Source: a virus. Taken from it: DNA of 25,432 nucleotides. Location of the stretch: IMG/VR virus record IMGVR_UViG_3300031565_000328, positions 1 through 25,432 of that record; one strand, given 5' to 3'. Positions 2,455-7,723 of the stretch are shown here, in pieces. Numbering within the stretch: position 1 is the stretch's first letter; each line of letters opens with the position of its first letter. The notes beneath the pieces are model-generated. The model worked only from the letters and a program-made list of their open reading frames with translations, searched no databases and was not told the DNA's origin. The position numbers and the translations under genes were made by a program.

Positions 2455-2843
2455 TGGGTACACCTGGAGTTCCTTGGAAAATGGCCAAGTCTAGGATTCT
2501 TGAGGTAATTAAAAAGAAAAAAGGTGTTGTAGCTCAAATATGCAAAGAACTAGATATCGCCTTTGAAACTTACGTTAAGCATATTAAAAACAAAGAAGAG
2601 TTTAAAGAAGCTATCGATAATGCGCGTAACGACTACGACACTACGATAGCAGATATGGCAGAGAATGCCTTGATGAGAGGACTGCAAGATGAAGATCCGA
2701 ATGCCTATCTTAAATCAGCAATGTACGTCCTGAACAACAAAGGCAGGGATCGTGGGTACAATCATCCCGAAGCGCAAAAGCAAGTCTTTACCCTCGTCGA
2801 AGTCAAAGAAAAGCTTAAAGACGGAAAGCTCGTACAATCTTGA
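2454..2843 (+). CDS. terS: Terminase small subunit
   Basis: A 129-residue protein in the position expected of the DNA-recognition subunit of the packaging motor, directly before TerL. Residues ~13-50 (KSRILEVIKKKKGVVAQICKELDI and following) resemble a helix-turn-helix. The central and C-terminal parts (MAENALMRGLQDEDPNAYLK, then AMYVLNNKGRDRGY) match the usual small-terminase pattern of a helical oligomerisation core followed by a K/R-G-rich end. The start ATG overlaps the methyltransferase stop. The gene overlaps the TerL frame by 92 bases. It would bind the packaging initiation site and load TerL; that part is inferred from family and position. Confidence 0.8.
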   Translation: MGTPGVPWKMAKSRILEVIKKKKGVVAQICKELDIAFETYVKHIKNKEEFKEAIDNARNDYDTTIADMAENALMRGLQDEDPNAYLKSAMYVLNNKGRDRGYNHPEAQKQVFTLVEVKEKLKDGKLVQS

Positions 2844-5325
2844 CTGCAAGGAATGGCGACTCAATCATCTCTATCGCATCATCGACAAGCAGGGGAACTC
2901 GATACGCTTTCAGCTCAATGCTGTTCAGACGATAGTCCTTCATAACATGCACAATCGCAATCTGATTTTGAAGGCTAGACAGCTCGGCATGAGTACGTTC
3001 GCAGTTTTGTATCTAGTCGATGAGGCAATCTTCGAGCGCAACATCTCTTGCGGTATCGTCTCGTACTCTTTAGAACACGCGCAGCACATCTATAAGAGGA
3101 TCATTGGACACGCTCTAGATACTTTCCTTCCTGAACTTGCTGGCTATCTAGGCATACAACAGCACTCAGCTAGAGAGATTACATTTAGCAATGGCTCGTT
3201 TCTCCGAGTTGACACTACTTTACGCGGTGGTGCTTATCAGCTAGTCCTAGTGTCGGAGTATGGCAAGACATGCGCGCGCAATCCGCTGAAAGCTGAAGAG
3301 GTAGTCACTGGTACGCTGCAATCTATACCAGCGTCGGGGCGTGTGATAATAGAGAGTACTGGTGAAGGCAATACTGGCTTCTATGCAGATATGATCAATC
3401 AGGCAGTCCTTGAATCAGGAAATAAGCTCACAGCCCTCGACTACAAGCTATTCTTTTTTCCCTGGTACTCTGAGTCAACGTACGTTCTTCAAGATGAAGT
3501 TAGCTACTCAGTGGATCTCACCGACTATTTTAACAAGTTAGAGAAAGATGCTGGTGTAAGGATTACGCAGCATCAACGCAACTGGTACGCTCTACAGGCA
3601 AAGATGCTCGGCGACAAGATGAAGCAGGAGTTTCCGTCTACGGTAGCCGAGGCGTTTGCCAGCTCCTCTGATGCTTACTACTTCCAAGCGCTCATTGAAG
3701 AAGCCTATGCCGACAGCCGCTGCTTAGCGATCTCACCTTACGATCCTCTACAGCCTGTCTATGTGGCAATGGATATCGGTGTCAATGATCTCACTGTCCT
3801 CGTTTTCATTCAGTGTGTGCATGGAGAGATTCGGGTCGTCGATTTCTATGCAGATTCGGGCAAAGGGGTAGAGTTCTATTGTCACTTTTTGCAACAGGAA
3901 AAACGGTTCTTGTATCATACAATTTTCCTCCCTCACGACGCTAGGAAGCGCGACGGTATAGTAGTAGACAATACATATGAGAGAGAGTTTCGTAAGCTTT
4001 TTTCTCACACCGAGACTAAGTTTGTCGTGCTCAAGCAAACCGACAAACAGATCCTGATCTCTAACGCTAAAATAAAACTCAGCCGATGCGTATTCTACCT
4101 CACTAAGACGAAGACTTTGCTTGAGTATCTCGGAAAGTATCGTAAGAAGTGGAGTGAGATGTACGGTCGCTACGAAGACTCCCCCTATCACGATATCAGC
4201 TGCTTCATAGGGGAAACGCTTGTCGAAACAGAGCATGGACTTAAGCGAATTGATAAGATAGTGGTAGGAGATAGAGTCTTAACTCCCACGGGATACAGAT
4301 ATGTTCGTAACGTTTTCCAGTACAAAACAAAAAGTCTGCTAAAAATAAAGTCTGATTCAGCCGATCTAATTTGCACTTCCCATCACAAAATTTTCAGCAA
4401 CAAAGGAATTGTAACCGCCGATTCTTTGCGTTATAATGATCAAATGATCACGCAAGAGGAGTGTGAAGATTGGGATCGGAGTTTATACCGTGGAAAGGCG
4501 AGAGAGTTAGGGTTCAAGGACTTTTTCTTATCAATGAGCCAGGAACAAAGATCTATTTTAATGGCTACAGCTACGCCAAGAATCAATTCGGATATTGGCG
4601 TGGAGGATCATCAATACCAAACAGCGGAGGATCATTGCATAGAGCTGTGTGGATCTATCACAAGGGAAAAATCCCTCCCAAATATGATATCCACCATTTG
4701 GATGATGATAAATCGAACAATGTTATCGACAACCTGGAACTTATCACCCACAGCGACCACATGTCCATGCACATGTCTACAGAAGAAAGAAGGTTTCTTT
4801 CAAGAAAAACAATATCTAAAGCTATCGCAGCCGCTCCGAAGTGGCACGCATCACCCGAAGGGATTGAGTGGCATAGAATCCACGGAAAGCATGCCTTTGC
4901 TCAAAAGCCGCTGCTGGAAAAGACTTGTAAGATTTGCTCGAAAACTTACCTTTCTCCTTGGAAAAACTCCACAATGTGTTCAAACGCATGCCGCGCTCAA
5001 TATAGAAGAAATACTGGAAAAGATACCGAAAAGCGTAAATGCCATATCTGCCATGAAGAATTTGAGTGTTTCAAATATAGCAAGCAAAGGAACTGTTCTA
5101 GGAGTTGCGGAGTTATATTCGGACATAGAAATAGAAGTGTATGATTTAGAAGTAGAAATCGATCATTGTTATTTTGCTAATGGAATTTTAGTAAGCAACT
5201 CTCATTATGCAGACGCTTTTCAATATGCCATGCAAGCCGTAACGCACATCGAAACAGTCAGCAGCATGAAAGGCGCTCTTGAGAAGCACAAAGCTGTAGT
5301 TGAGAAGAGGCGATTTCAAATATAG
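2752..5325 (+). CDS. terL: Terminase large subunit interrupted by an intein
   Basis: ATP-driven DNA packaging motor and headful nuclease. The N-terminal ATPase has a Walker A-like ILKARQLGMST (residues ~72-82) and Walker B LVLVSEYGK (E169), followed by the family pattern NPLKAEEVVTGT...IESTGEGNTGFY. The nuclease domain begins at AMDIG (D341). Residues 484-816 are an intein, inserted just before HYADAF, which carries the last metal-binding Asp (D821). The mature protein would be about 524 residues, normal for the family. The only start codon before the conserved region in this frame is GTG 2752, deep inside TerS, so the true start is uncertain; the next ATG (2947) would lose the adenine-binding region. 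The frame stays open through an HNH gene nested in another frame. Confidence 0.93.
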   Translation: MGTIIPKRKSKSLPSSKSKKSLKTESSYNLDCKEWRLNHLYRIIDKQGNSIRFQLNAVQTIVLHNMHNRNLILKARQLGMSTFAVLYLVDEAIFERNISCGIVSYSLEHAQHIYKRIIGHALDTFLPELAGYLGIQQHSAREITFSNGSFLRVDTTLRGGAYQLVLVSEYGKTCARNPLKAEEVVTGTLQSIPASGRVIIESTGEGNTGFYADMINQAVLESGNKLTALDYKLFFFPWYSESTYVLQDEVSYSVDLTDYFNKLEKDAGVRITQHQRNWYALQAKMLGDKMKQEFPSTVAEAFASSSDAYYFQALIEEAYADSRCLAISPYDPLQPVYVAMDIGVNDLTVLVFIQCVHGEIRVVDFYADSGKGVEFYCHFLQQEKRFLYHTIFLPHDARKRDGIVVDNTYEREFRKLFSHTETKFVVLKQTDKQILISNAKIKLSRCVFYLTKTKTLLEYLGKYRKKWSEMYGRYEDSPYHDISCFIGETLVETEHGLKRIDKIVVGDRVLTPTGYRYVRNVFQYKTKSLLKIKSDSADLICTSHHKIFSNKGIVTADSLRYNDQMITQEECEDWDRSLYRGKARELGFKDFFLSMSQEQRSILMATATPRINSDIGVEDHQYQTAEDHCIELCGSITREKSLPNMISTIWMMINRTMLSTTWNLSPTATTCPCTCLQKKEGFFQEKQYLKLSQPLRSGTHHPKGLSGIESTESMPLLKSRCWKRLVRFARKLTFLLGKTPQCVQTHAALNIEEILEKIPKSVNAISAMKNLSVSNIASKGTVLGVAELYSDIEIEVYDLEVEIDHCYFANGILVSNSHYADAFQYAMQAVTHIETVSSMKGALEKHKAVVEKRRFQI
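4201..5199 (+). other. Intein in TerL (mini-intein splicing blocks; HEN out of frame)
   Basis: A 333-residue protein-splicing element. Block A begins with Cys1 (CFIGETLVETEHGLKRIDKI, then VGDRVLT). Block B has CTSHHKIFS with the TxxH motif. Blocks F/G are VYDLEVEIDHCYFANGILVSN, ending in the splice Asn; the next extein residue is Ser. The penultimate residue is Ser instead of the usual His, which some functional inteins tolerate. Insertion is between YHDIS and SHYADAF in the terminase nuclease motif, a conserved site of the kind inteins favour. Between blocks B and F the intein frame encodes ~220 residues with no recognisable domain; the endonuclease is encoded in a different frame of the same DNA. 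Confidence 0.92.
4470..5144 (+). CDS. HNH homing endonuclease nested out of frame in the TerL intein
   Basis: A 224-residue endonuclease that would cut intein-less terminase genes to spread the intein. Residues ~28-45 form an N-terminal strand region and residues 57-101 the HNH core: LHRAV, then IHHLDDDKSNNVIDNLELIT with HH at 75-76, N84/N88 and distal H97 and H101. Two C-terminal zinc fingers follow (C153/C156/C170/C174 and C191/C194/C209/C213). It is not in the intein frame. A stop (TGA 4464-4466) directly precedes the frame, so in-frame fusion is excluded without a frameshift. TTG 4470 is the first start and has AGAGGAG (4455-4461) 8 nt upstream, so independent internal translation is likely. 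Its stop (5142-5144) falls inside intein block F. Confidence 0.85.
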   Translation: MGSEFIPWKGERVRVQGLFLINEPGTKIYFNGYSYAKNQFGYWRGGSSIPNSGGSLHRAVWIYHKGKIPPKYDIHHLDDDKSNNVIDNLELITHSDHMSMHMSTEERRFLSRKTISKAIAAAPKWHASPEGIEWHRIHGKHAFAQKPLLEKTCKICSKTYLSPWKNSTMCSNACRAQYRRNTGKDTEKRKCHICHEEFECFKYSKQRNCSRSCGVIFGHRNRSV

Positions 5326-5375
5326 GTATTAAAATATTTACTGAGCATAATGCAGTCTTTTCATAAGATGGCTAC

Positions 5376-7541
5376 ATGCTCACAGACAACGAAATATTTG
5401 GCGAATATCAAGAGAATTACAGATACGCGCATGACTTCTGGGTTCCGTTCACGCGCAACGCACAAATCTTTACTTTAGCAGCTTCGGGTTACACTTGGAG
5501 CGATGCAGAACTTAAAGAGCTATCTAAGCAGGGCAGAGAGCCGCTAGAGCTGAATATCATGCGACGACCCTTGCAGTTCTTCAGCGGCTACCTGCGTGAC
5601 AATCTTAACAGCGTTGTAGTTGCACCAGTCGAAGGCTCCGACCAGAAGACGGCCGATCAGTTTACTAAGCTCATGTATTATGTGTGGGACAAAGGCGGTG
5701 GCTATAACACTTTCCTAGACGCTTGCGACGAGGGGATGAAGTCTGGTTTATCGCTCTGTGGTATACAGATGGATTACTCCAGGGACTTCGTTAATGGGGA
5801 AATATCTTTCTTTAAGCGTACTTATAACAGCTTTTATCTCGATCCAACTTTCGAGCGCATTGACCTGGTGGATTGTGGTTTTGCCATTACTAGAGATCTA
5901 CTTAACCGCACCCTGGTAAAGCAGCTCTTGCCGTTTGTGGATCCTAAAGTGATCGACGATGTGCAGATGAGTTTTCGAGACGATAAGTTCTTAAGCTACC
6001 ATCCTAACTTTACTACTCTAAGCCGTAACCGAAACCTGATGGCCTATGATCAGTATTACAGGCGCACATCAAGAGAGCGGGAATTCTTAGTCGACGAGAA
6101 CGCAGGCTTTTACCGAGACATCACAGATCTCTCCAAAGACGAAAAGTATGATCTTAAAGTAGGTATCAAGCGGATCCAGACTTTACATGATGATGCAGAA
6201 GAAATGGGTGTCGAGCCTAAAGACCTCCCACCGATTCTAAGGATTCAAAAAGTAGAGCGACCGTATGTAGAACTTAACATCATGCTCAACGGCCAGCGCG
6301 TTTTCTGCGGAGAGGATAAGACCGGGATAGTTGAGACTTACCCTTTTGCACCTGTGCTTTGTTATATGGAGCCGTCGATCTGGATGCCCTCACAGCGGGT
6401 GCAAGGGATTGCATCTACCCTTTGGTCAGCTCAGCGGCAGTTTAACAAAAGGCACATGAAGATCATCGACATGATGGATTCCGACATTGCGACAGGGTAC
6501 AAATATTTTATTGGTGCAGTGGCCGATGTGGAAGATCTACAGCAAGCCGGGCAAAACAAGATCATCGGGATCGATCCAGAGAATGCACCTGCGGGCATGG
6601 ATTCAGTGCAACAGCTACAGGGCGGAGGTGCTAATCCTGCTCTTATCGAGTACCAGGCGATCTTAGATCAGTTGACACTCACGTTGGCAAACGTAAACGA
6701 GTCGGTGCTTGGTGTAGATGAGAAAGGCAACACACAGGTATCCGGGCGATTAGCTCAAGTCAGGATCGCTCAGGGACTACGCAGCAACCGTAAGATCTTT
6801 GATAACATCGAAGTTACCCAAGCAATCATTGGCGGCTTATGTCTAAAGGCTATTCAGAATCACTACACTCCGGCAAAAGTGCGGCGCATCATCGGTGAAG
6901 AGCCTACAGAGCAATTCTATGAAAAGGACTTCGAGCAATATGACGCAGTTCTGAAAGAGGGTGTCAGATCCAAATCTCAGAAAGACGCTTACTATTACGA
7001 GCTTGTTAACCTCAAGAAAGATCAACTGGTGGATGTTCCGCAGAGCGAAATTGTTCGCAATCTACCTTCTGCTGGCAATAGCGATCTACAGGAAGCGATC
7101 GATCAGCAACAGCAACAGCAGCAAGCTCAGCAGCAGAAAATGGATGAGCAGGAGCAAATGCAGATCAAATTGCAAAATGCCAAAGTTGATGAAGCTGTAG
7201 CGCTGACGCAAGAAAGAAGGGCGCGTGTAGTAACTGACATTGCCCGAGCAGCAGAATTATCATCCGAAGCGGAACAGAATCGAGCAAAAGCCGCTCTGGA
7301 TCGTGCTAAAACTATCACTGAGATAGCGACGATGAAAACCGATCAGCTGCTAAAAGTGATAGGATTTGTAAATTTGCTGAATCAGCAAGAGACTCTCGAT
7401 AGGGACGAAGTAGAGGAAAGAGTACACGCTCAATCCGATCAGATCAATTCAGAGACTCAGGGATCAGCAGAGCAGATAGAGAAAGATCAACTACTACAAC
7501 AGATTTCACAAATGGGAAACCAACCAGGAATACAGCCATGA
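5376..7541 (+). CDS. Portal protein (P22 type)
   Basis: A 721-residue protein, close to the usual length of P22-family portals (about 700-725), placed directly after terminase. It forms the dodecameric ring at one capsid vertex through which DNA enters and leaves. The N-terminal YAHDFWVPFTRNAQIFTL and the segment NIMRRPLQFFSGYLRDN are typical of this family, as is DYSRDF...YNSFYLDPTF. The C-terminal ~150 residues are Gln-rich (poly-Gln near residue 575) followed by a long charged helix, matching the barrel/coiled-coil extension. No strong ribosome-binding site is seen before ATG 5376. The stop overlaps the next start (ATGA). Confidence 0.88.
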   Translation: MLTDNEIFGEYQENYRYAHDFWVPFTRNAQIFTLAASGYTWSDAELKELSKQGREPLELNIMRRPLQFFSGYLRDNLNSVVVAPVEGSDQKTADQFTKLMYYVWDKGGGYNTFLDACDEGMKSGLSLCGIQMDYSRDFVNGEISFFKRTYNSFYLDPTFERIDLVDCGFAITRDLLNRTLVKQLLPFVDPKVIDDVQMSFRDDKFLSYHPNFTTLSRNRNLMAYDQYYRRTSREREFLVDENAGFYRDITDLSKDEKYDLKVGIKRIQTLHDDAEEMGVEPKDLPPILRIQKVERPYVELNIMLNGQRVFCGEDKTGIVETYPFAPVLCYMEPSIWMPSQRVQGIASTLWSAQRQFNKRHMKIIDMMDSDIATGYKYFIGAVADVEDLQQAGQNKIIGIDPENAPAGMDSVQQLQGGGANPALIEYQAILDQLTLTLANVNESVLGVDEKGNTQVSGRLAQVRIAQGLRSNRKIFDNIEVTQAIIGGLCLKAIQNHYTPAKVRRIIGEEPTEQFYEKDFEQYDAVLKEGVRSKSQKDAYYYELVNLKKDQLVDVPQSEIVRNLPSAGNSDLQEAIDQQQQQQQAQQQKMDEQEQMQIKLQNAKVDEAVALTQERRARVVTDIARAAELSSEAEQNRAKAALDRAKTITEIATMKTDQLLKVIGFVNLLNQQETLDRDEVEERVHAQSDQINSETQGSAEQIEKDQLLQQISQMGNQPGIQP

Positions 7542-7723
7542 AAAAGATGTCACAAGGATTTAATTCCAAGATGGATGAGATGCTTGGATCTAAAAACGGT
7601 AAGAAGAAAAAGCAGTCTCTTAAGGATCGTCGCGACGAGTCTAAAGGAATGGAGAAGGCTATGGGCAAGAGATCGTATTCTTCTGTCATGAGCATGGACA
7701 AAGGCTCTAGGAAAAAGAAGTAA
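7538..7723 (+). CDS. Small basic phage protein (paralogue of 8966-9142)
   Basis: A 61-residue Lys-rich protein with the pattern FNSKMDEMLGSKNG, then SLKDRRDESKGMEKAMGKR, then MDKGSRKKK. I recognise the NSRMDESLG...RRDESKGM pattern as recurrent in phage genomes between portal and capsid genes, but no function is known to me; the charge suggests nucleic-acid or capsid association (inference). It overlaps the portal stop and the next start, so it is translated as part of the late operon. A second copy lies 1.4 kb downstream. Confidence 0.75.
   Translation: MKKMSQGFNSKMDEMLGSKNGKKKKQSLKDRRDESKGMEKAMGKRSYSSVMSMDKGSRKKK

Follow-up and report, generated by a model that had tools for sequence, protein, structure and literature searches.

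Textbook inteins carry their homing endonuclease as one of their own domains, and split inteins of the gp41-1 type were reportedly described from fractured genes by Dassa in 2009. The intein in the dCTP deaminase of cyanophage CL131, which was spliced in Escherichia coli, contains an in-frame HNH_3 endonuclease (PMC6293099), and the endonuclease domains shown for inteins in the terminase large subunit (TerL) of mycobacteriophages are in-frame LAGLIDADG, at sites within the ATPase domain (PMC5050341). An out-of-frame HNH has been described inside an insertion in phage DNA methylase (the ShiLan domain and the Pacc40 gp60 insertion; Arsenault, Gosselin and Gogarten 2025, PMC11855218). The terL gene analyzed here lies in a 25,432-base viral record (IMG/VR IMGVR_UViG_3300031565_000328, positions 1 to 25,432, referred to as the window) and is interrupted by an intein whose reading frame stays open across an HNH gene encoded in a different frame. 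This locus is very probably a mobile terminase intein that yields two proteins from one stretch of DNA, TerL with its intein and, separately, the HNH endonuclease.

A preliminary description of the window had placed the intein blocks, the open terminase frame, the out-of-frame HNH gene with its AGAGGAG and TTG signals, and two zinc fingers, and all of these coordinates proved exact. In the feature list below, evidence is given in parentheses, confidence of AlphaFold2 models is given as pLDDT (predicted local distance difference test), and statements about 28 lineages refer here and throughout to a set collected by the presence of the intein, not by openness of its frame.

2752 to 4200, plus strand: N-extein of TerL (phrog_2, 6.6e-23; phrog_26724/2472; tblastn matches to phage TerLs at 33 to 36% identity).
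4201 to 5199, plus strand: intein of 333 residues, from Cys1 (4201 to 4203) to Asn333 (5197 to 5199), followed by Ser at +1, with its frame open throughout (Intein_splicing, 8e-9; AlphaFold2 Hint fold).
4201 to 4469, plus strand: IntN, the single-coding N part of the splicing domain, residues 1 to 90 (pLDDT 93 to 97 for residues 1 to 80).
4409 to 4437, plus strand: promoter-like TTGTAA-17-TATAAT upstream of the HNH gene, weak and unproven (consensus scan, 5 sites versus 2.6 expected).
4455 to 4461, plus strand: AGAGGAG Shine-Dalgarno (SD) site of the nested HNH gene (sequence; anti-SD duplex, −10.6 kcal/mol).
4470 to 5144, plus strand: HNH-zinc finger homing endonuclease gene of 224 residues, at offset +2 to the intein frame, with a TTG start at 4470 and a TGA stop at 5142 to 5144 (HNH_3, 5.6e-17; phrog_15471, 4.7e-35; mean pLDDT 91).
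4590 to 5069, plus strand: dual-coded passive open spacer (intein-frame identity equal to the HNH-preserving null over HNH residues 41 to 200; pLDDT below 50 for intein residues 182 to 293).
4635 to 4772, plus strand: HNH core, residues 56 to 101, LHRAVW...HHLD...NN...NL...H...H (near-invariant in the 28 lineages).
4926 to 4991, plus strand: zinc finger 1, C153, C156, C170 and C174 (invariant or at least 90% conserved in the 28 lineages).
5040 to 5108, plus strand: zinc finger 2, C191, C194, C209 and C213 (alignment).
5083 to 5199, plus strand: IntC, blocks F and G, EVYDLEVEIDHCYFANGILVSN (profile match, 9e-21; pLDDT 93 to 96 for residues 301 to 333).
5200 to 5325, plus strand: C-extein of TerL, SHYADAFQY..., with the last nuclease motif (intein-less relatives read HDIS-SNYADCFQY without a gap).

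As in the ShiLan insertion, a zinc-finger HNH occupies another frame of the insertion, the host frame is open, and the distribution is patchy. ShiLan, however, is without intein motifs or a splicing domain, is thought to remain in the methylase, has no SD, and is proposed to use a leaderless start (PMC11855218), whereas the HNH of the window sits between the parts of a full Hint intein, its host protein, TerL, is essential, and its start is preceded in this virus by an SD; with a splicing domain present, the locus falls outside the ShiLan type. Canonical HNH inteins like that of CL131 share an HNH_3 endonuclease between N and C splicing blocks, but their HNH is read in the intein's own frame and leaves with the spliced-out protein, while the HNH here is a separate gene at offset +2, leaving no in-frame endonuclease of a full-size intein between blocks B and F. 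Mycobacteriophage TerL inteins have the same kind of host protein; unlike them, this element lies near the last nuclease motif, and its endonuclease is an out-of-frame HNH. Likeness to split inteins lies in the gp41-1 intein, the best PDB match of the AlphaFold2 intein model (2.7e-8, 34% identity), and in relatives with IntN, HNH, and IntC in separate frames or open reading frames (ORFs). The window's intein differs in being contiguous and needing no trans-splicing, with IntN and IntC in a single ORF (2752 to 5325, 857 residues, zero in-frame stops with the intein included).

Both products have the hallmarks of their families. Besides the Pfam match listed above, the intein matches NCBIfam intein_Cterm (3.8e-6), has T59..H62 in block B and D315/H322 in block F (VYDLEVEIDHCYFANGILVSN), and is assigned a Hint fold with blocks A, B, F, and G by Pfam, NCBIfam, AlphaFold2, and Foldseek. 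The ends of its model reach pLDDT 93 to 97, and the middle falls below 50. The nested gene combines the HNH_3 match with both zinc-finger Cys quartets, a homing-endonuclease signature, and the best PDB match of its model is the homing enzyme I-HmuI, at a modest E value of 2.9e-3 (probability 0.98).

Relatives carry the same arrangement. An IMG/VR search with TerL and IntN returned four loci (L006 to L009) with 51 to 63% amino acid identity, an open intein frame, and an HNH at +2, and the HNH start codon falls at intein nucleotide 270 in all five viruses. The +2 offset also occurs in L085, L087, and L108, and in Tetrasphaera phage TJE1, Acinetobacter phage Highwayman, and Rhodobacteraceae phage LS06-2018-MD07, where the records label the whole ORF as terminase large subunit and leave the HNH unannotated. 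An HNH-blind search (patterns from TerL and the intein C terminus), pooled with earlier loci and phage records, gave 35 distinct intein clusters in which the HNH, where present, was always at +2. An intein-blind search, its pattern drawn only from the HNH, was pooled with all earlier loci, and clustering at 80% identity left 117 HNH clusters. Of these, 86 are nested at +2 and 6 at +1, 9 have an interrupted intein frame, 13 are free-standing, and 3 are of other kinds. Nested HNHs of both offsets lie within a terminase ORF carrying intein blocks, and no ordinary in-frame HNH domain was found among the 117 clusters, in a search seeded from out-of-frame members. Scanned host ORFs match terminase families. 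A scan of genome contigs with the HNH alignment found none, the same scan with the intein alignment found one metagenome-assembled genome (L261), and a plasmid search gave no match. One terL (L159, 1303 to 2178 and 3013 to 3927) apparently holds a pair of dual-coding inteins, both with a +2 HNH. LAGLIDADG_3 also matches two of the scanned host ORFs, which suggests that the same terminase holds a second intein of the conventional type; candidates are long ORFs such as L121 and L222.

Stops were counted in both non-HNH frames of each cluster and compared to a null that preserves the HNH protein. All 86 nested +2 clusters had 0.00 stops in the intein frame versus 2.28 expected (third frame, 18.8 versus 19.4) and all 6 nested +1 clusters had 0.00 versus 10.15 (other frame, 9.5 versus 7.7); zero stops partly defines the nested class, and the weight of the comparison rests on the third frame and on HNHs outside contiguous inteins. 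Those HNHs sit at expectation, both when free-standing (6.85 stops versus 6.95) and when between broken or split intein halves (7.56 versus 7.48), indicating that the null is calibrated. The absence of stops tracks whichever frame the intein uses. Openness is therefore conserved in homologous terminases, and these counts support the dual-coding homing element first proposed for the window, with splicing and homing as its predicted activities. Broken intein frames, which might have spoken against a frame held open, do occur in eight clusters (in the ninth, L261, the break is only at ambiguous bases). They leave the proposal standing, because the layout there is that of a split intein: the terminase-IntN frame ends ahead of the HNH, and any IntC found is on the far side of it.

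The preliminary description also took the intein frame to be an open spacer, and a protein-preserving substitute for dN/dS agrees, showing selection only at the ends of the overlap. Amino acid identity between lineages in the intein frame clearly exceeds the null only over HNH residues 1 to 40 and 201 to the end, which are the overlap with the splicing domain; over residues 41 to 200 it is at or very near the null. AlphaFold2 concurs with this pattern, with confident Hint ends, a low-confidence spacer, and a well-folded HNH. The spacer is constrained to stay open, not to hold a particular sequence. An amino acid function of the spacer was considered and ruled out by the null-level identity of its middle and by hydropathy, also at the null (mean z, −0.3).

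A mechanism consistent with these results would begin with TerL and the intein made as one protein from the open frame. The Hint halves would fold together, join the exteins between HDIS and SHYAD, and free a 333-residue intein with a floppy middle filler. The HNH endonuclease would be made from the second frame as a separate protein by internal initiation and would cut intein-less terL at the insertion site, where repair would copy in the whole element. The sole reason for the intein frame to be open would be that a stop cuts short an essential packaging enzyme, the amino acids of the filler being otherwise dictated by HNH codons.

Several points weigh against this mechanism. The penultimate intein residue is Ser332, not the usual His; Ser is also found in 31 of 33 relatives and appears typical of this intein subfamily, His being usual rather than an absolute criterion. 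About one-third of the 28 lineages are without a clear SD, making HNH expression in those lineages less certain. Inteins and exteins have diverged to much the same extent, which does not establish recent homing. The product of openness P values over the 28 lineages, 1e-61, is an upper bound on strength, as the lineages are related and independence is overstated. Finally, splicing, HNH translation, cleavage, homing, and the direction of evolution are all inferred.

A bolder reading, conceivable if somewhat doubtful, is that these are widespread "entangled" inteins in which the overlap is itself adaptive and shields the homing gene from decay, with transitions between free-standing, split, and entangled states being a strategy and not an accident. 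If so, a frameshift in the nuclease would also destroy the essential terminase, and indels could not silently kill the endonuclease.

Mobility of the element bears on what the HNH does. TerLs with no intein are abundant and read straight through the insertion site (examples are among L010 to L083), and the insertion point varies by a few codons among lineages, near the last TerL nuclease motif. The terL flank of L006 is 78% identical to that of intein-less L012 and 65 to 70% identical to other intein-bearing terLs, so the presence of the intein is patchy. In L091, the intein is retained and its frame is intact, but a stop and a large in-phase deletion disrupt the HNH frame; the HNH is similarly reduced and the intein frame kept in L130, L133, L134, and L179. 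Loss of the HNH in five lineages with the intein frame kept indicates that, of the two, only the intein frame is indispensable. It is unlikely, on this evidence, that the nested protein is a packaging HNH, as encoded beside many terL genes, that became lodged in an intein and is no homing enzyme. Packaging-associated HNH genes beside terminases have been described, and the closest free-standing relatives of this HNH do adjoin terL, with terL-adjoining examples in Lactobacillus CL2, Pseudomonas PAE1 and FBPa53, Exiguobacterium EauM-23, Sphaerotilus SN1, and Salmonella Shemara. However, intein-less relatives have no HNH at the site, the five lineages above dropped the HNH and kept the intein, and the best fold match, at its modest score, is a homing enzyme.

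The homing-intein reading accommodates more than one origin. A split layout of IntN, stop, HNH, and IntC occurs in Vibrio phage 1.245.O, L191, L193, L197, L201, and L202, and the nested HNH of Highwayman shares 50% identity with a free-standing HNH that lies upstream of the small terminase gene in Acinetobacter BP10. The HNH tree mixes free-standing, split, and nested states, implying that they interconvert; 18 label changes are needed for the +2 class (at least 6 forced by strong branches) and 3 for the +1 class, with deep branches poorly resolved. A single origin of nesting was rejected on these label changes. Either invasion of a mini-intein by an HNH or fusion of an HNH-bearing split intein would do. 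In Vibrio phage 1.245.O (L095, 2300 to 3500), a "hedgehog/hint domain protein" by terL resembles the IntC half of a split terminase intein, and the HNH between the split intein halves is unannotated. In Brochothrix phage BL3 (L262, 2226 to 2411), a fragment that matches the HNH zinc fingers alone lies across the terL end and the gene that follows and is a possible remnant.

Expression of the HNH as a separate protein is suggested by signals at its start. The SD before 4470 outscores the sites upstream of all other start-like codons tested in the TerL gene of this virus, and SD strength is enriched across the 28 lineages (Wilcoxon P = 0.003, with 12 lineages ranking in the top tenth). In these lineages, the start lies at intein nucleotides 249 to 282, and the stop mostly 55 nucleotides before the intein end. 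The base 3' of the start codon is never A (28 of 28 lineages), because ATG followed by A would create TGA in the intein frame. The promoter-like element listed above ends 33 nucleotides 5' of the HNH start and could drive the gene independently. In L008 and L006, an extra zinc-finger module of about 40 residues in the HNH C terminus is in phase with both frames. A −1 programmed frameshift near 4464 could instead yield a TerL-IntN-HNH fusion, as the HNH frame is one slip away and translation of TerL would supply ribosomes. This is very unlikely given the SD and start codon, and given the stop in the HNH frame that lies just upstream of the start (one codon before it in this virus; median, five codons in the 28 lineages), which favors internal initiation over a frameshift fusion.

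Three explanations are the least tenable. Openness by luck, beside a real HNH gene, was evaluated in this virus by permuting the HNH's own synonymous codons or by resampling codons from window usage. The intein frame over the HNH had 0 stops versus 4.2 expected, with P = 0.002 by permutation and P = 0.0002 by resampling, and the remaining frame had 20 stops, matching expectation. An initial estimate of chance openness, about 2 in 100,000, was thus too strong, because the offset of the intein frame over the HNH (+1 within that gene) is intrinsically stop-poor, as 4.2 versus 20 illustrates. A single-virus P value of 0.002 leaves luck some room, but with all 86 of the +2 and all 6 of the +1 clusters open and free-standing and split HNHs at expectation (Fisher P = 1.6e-16), chance is refuted.

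Equally remote is the idea that sequencing or assembly frameshifts conceal an ordinary in-frame HNH domain, even with the CL131 deaminase as proof that in-frame HNH_3 inteins exist (PMC6293099). Two contigs from other samples match over 5.4 kb (99.9%) and 7.2 kb (99.5%) and encode the identical HNH, and L006 to L009 share the arrangement; these agreements dispose of the compensating errors that had been raised as a concern. Dozens of unrelated lineages have this offset, as do TJE1, Highwayman, and LS06-2018-MD07, and the HNH has its own start shortly after an in-frame stop. Removal of the segment as a self-splicing RNA intron, with a coincidentally open intein frame, can be dismissed despite how common HNH genes are in phage group I introns, as an Rfam search of 2500 to 7600 found no intron match or group I core and the segment has complete Hint motifs and a gp41-1-like fold.

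The terL gene sits in a set of head genes in the order methyltransferase, small terminase, TerL, P22-like portal, and major head protein. The DNA methyltransferase just 5' of the terminase genes (1180 to 2454; phrog_498, 1.9e-119) has a fused ParB-like N-terminal domain. A perfect 77-nucleotide direct repeat (850 to 926 and 1115 to 1191, spacing 265 nucleotides) reaches from where one ORF ends to where the ParB/methyltransferase ORF begins and may be a duplication or an assembly artifact.

Full-text literature searches found no report of a dual-coding intein, and a preprint on noncanonical actinobacteriophage inteins (doi 10.1101/2025.01.02.630785, cited in PMC11855218) may overlap; within that limit, the element represents a new, widespread variant of the homing intein. 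It extends the unexplained hidden HNHs of the ShiLan type and ties free-standing HNHs, split inteins, and contiguous inteins to one target gene. Annotation pipelines miss such nested genes, as with the HNHs of TJE1, Highwayman, and LS06-2018-MD07. For the study of how overlapping genes are maintained, these loci offer a large, statistically clean natural set, with nothing but stop avoidance in one frame and full amino acid selection in the other. About ninety phage terminase lineages appear to use dual coding in place of the textbook in-frame endonuclease domain, and the nuclease would thereby be made separately, from its own start and at its own dosage, independent of splicing and of the level of TerL expression.

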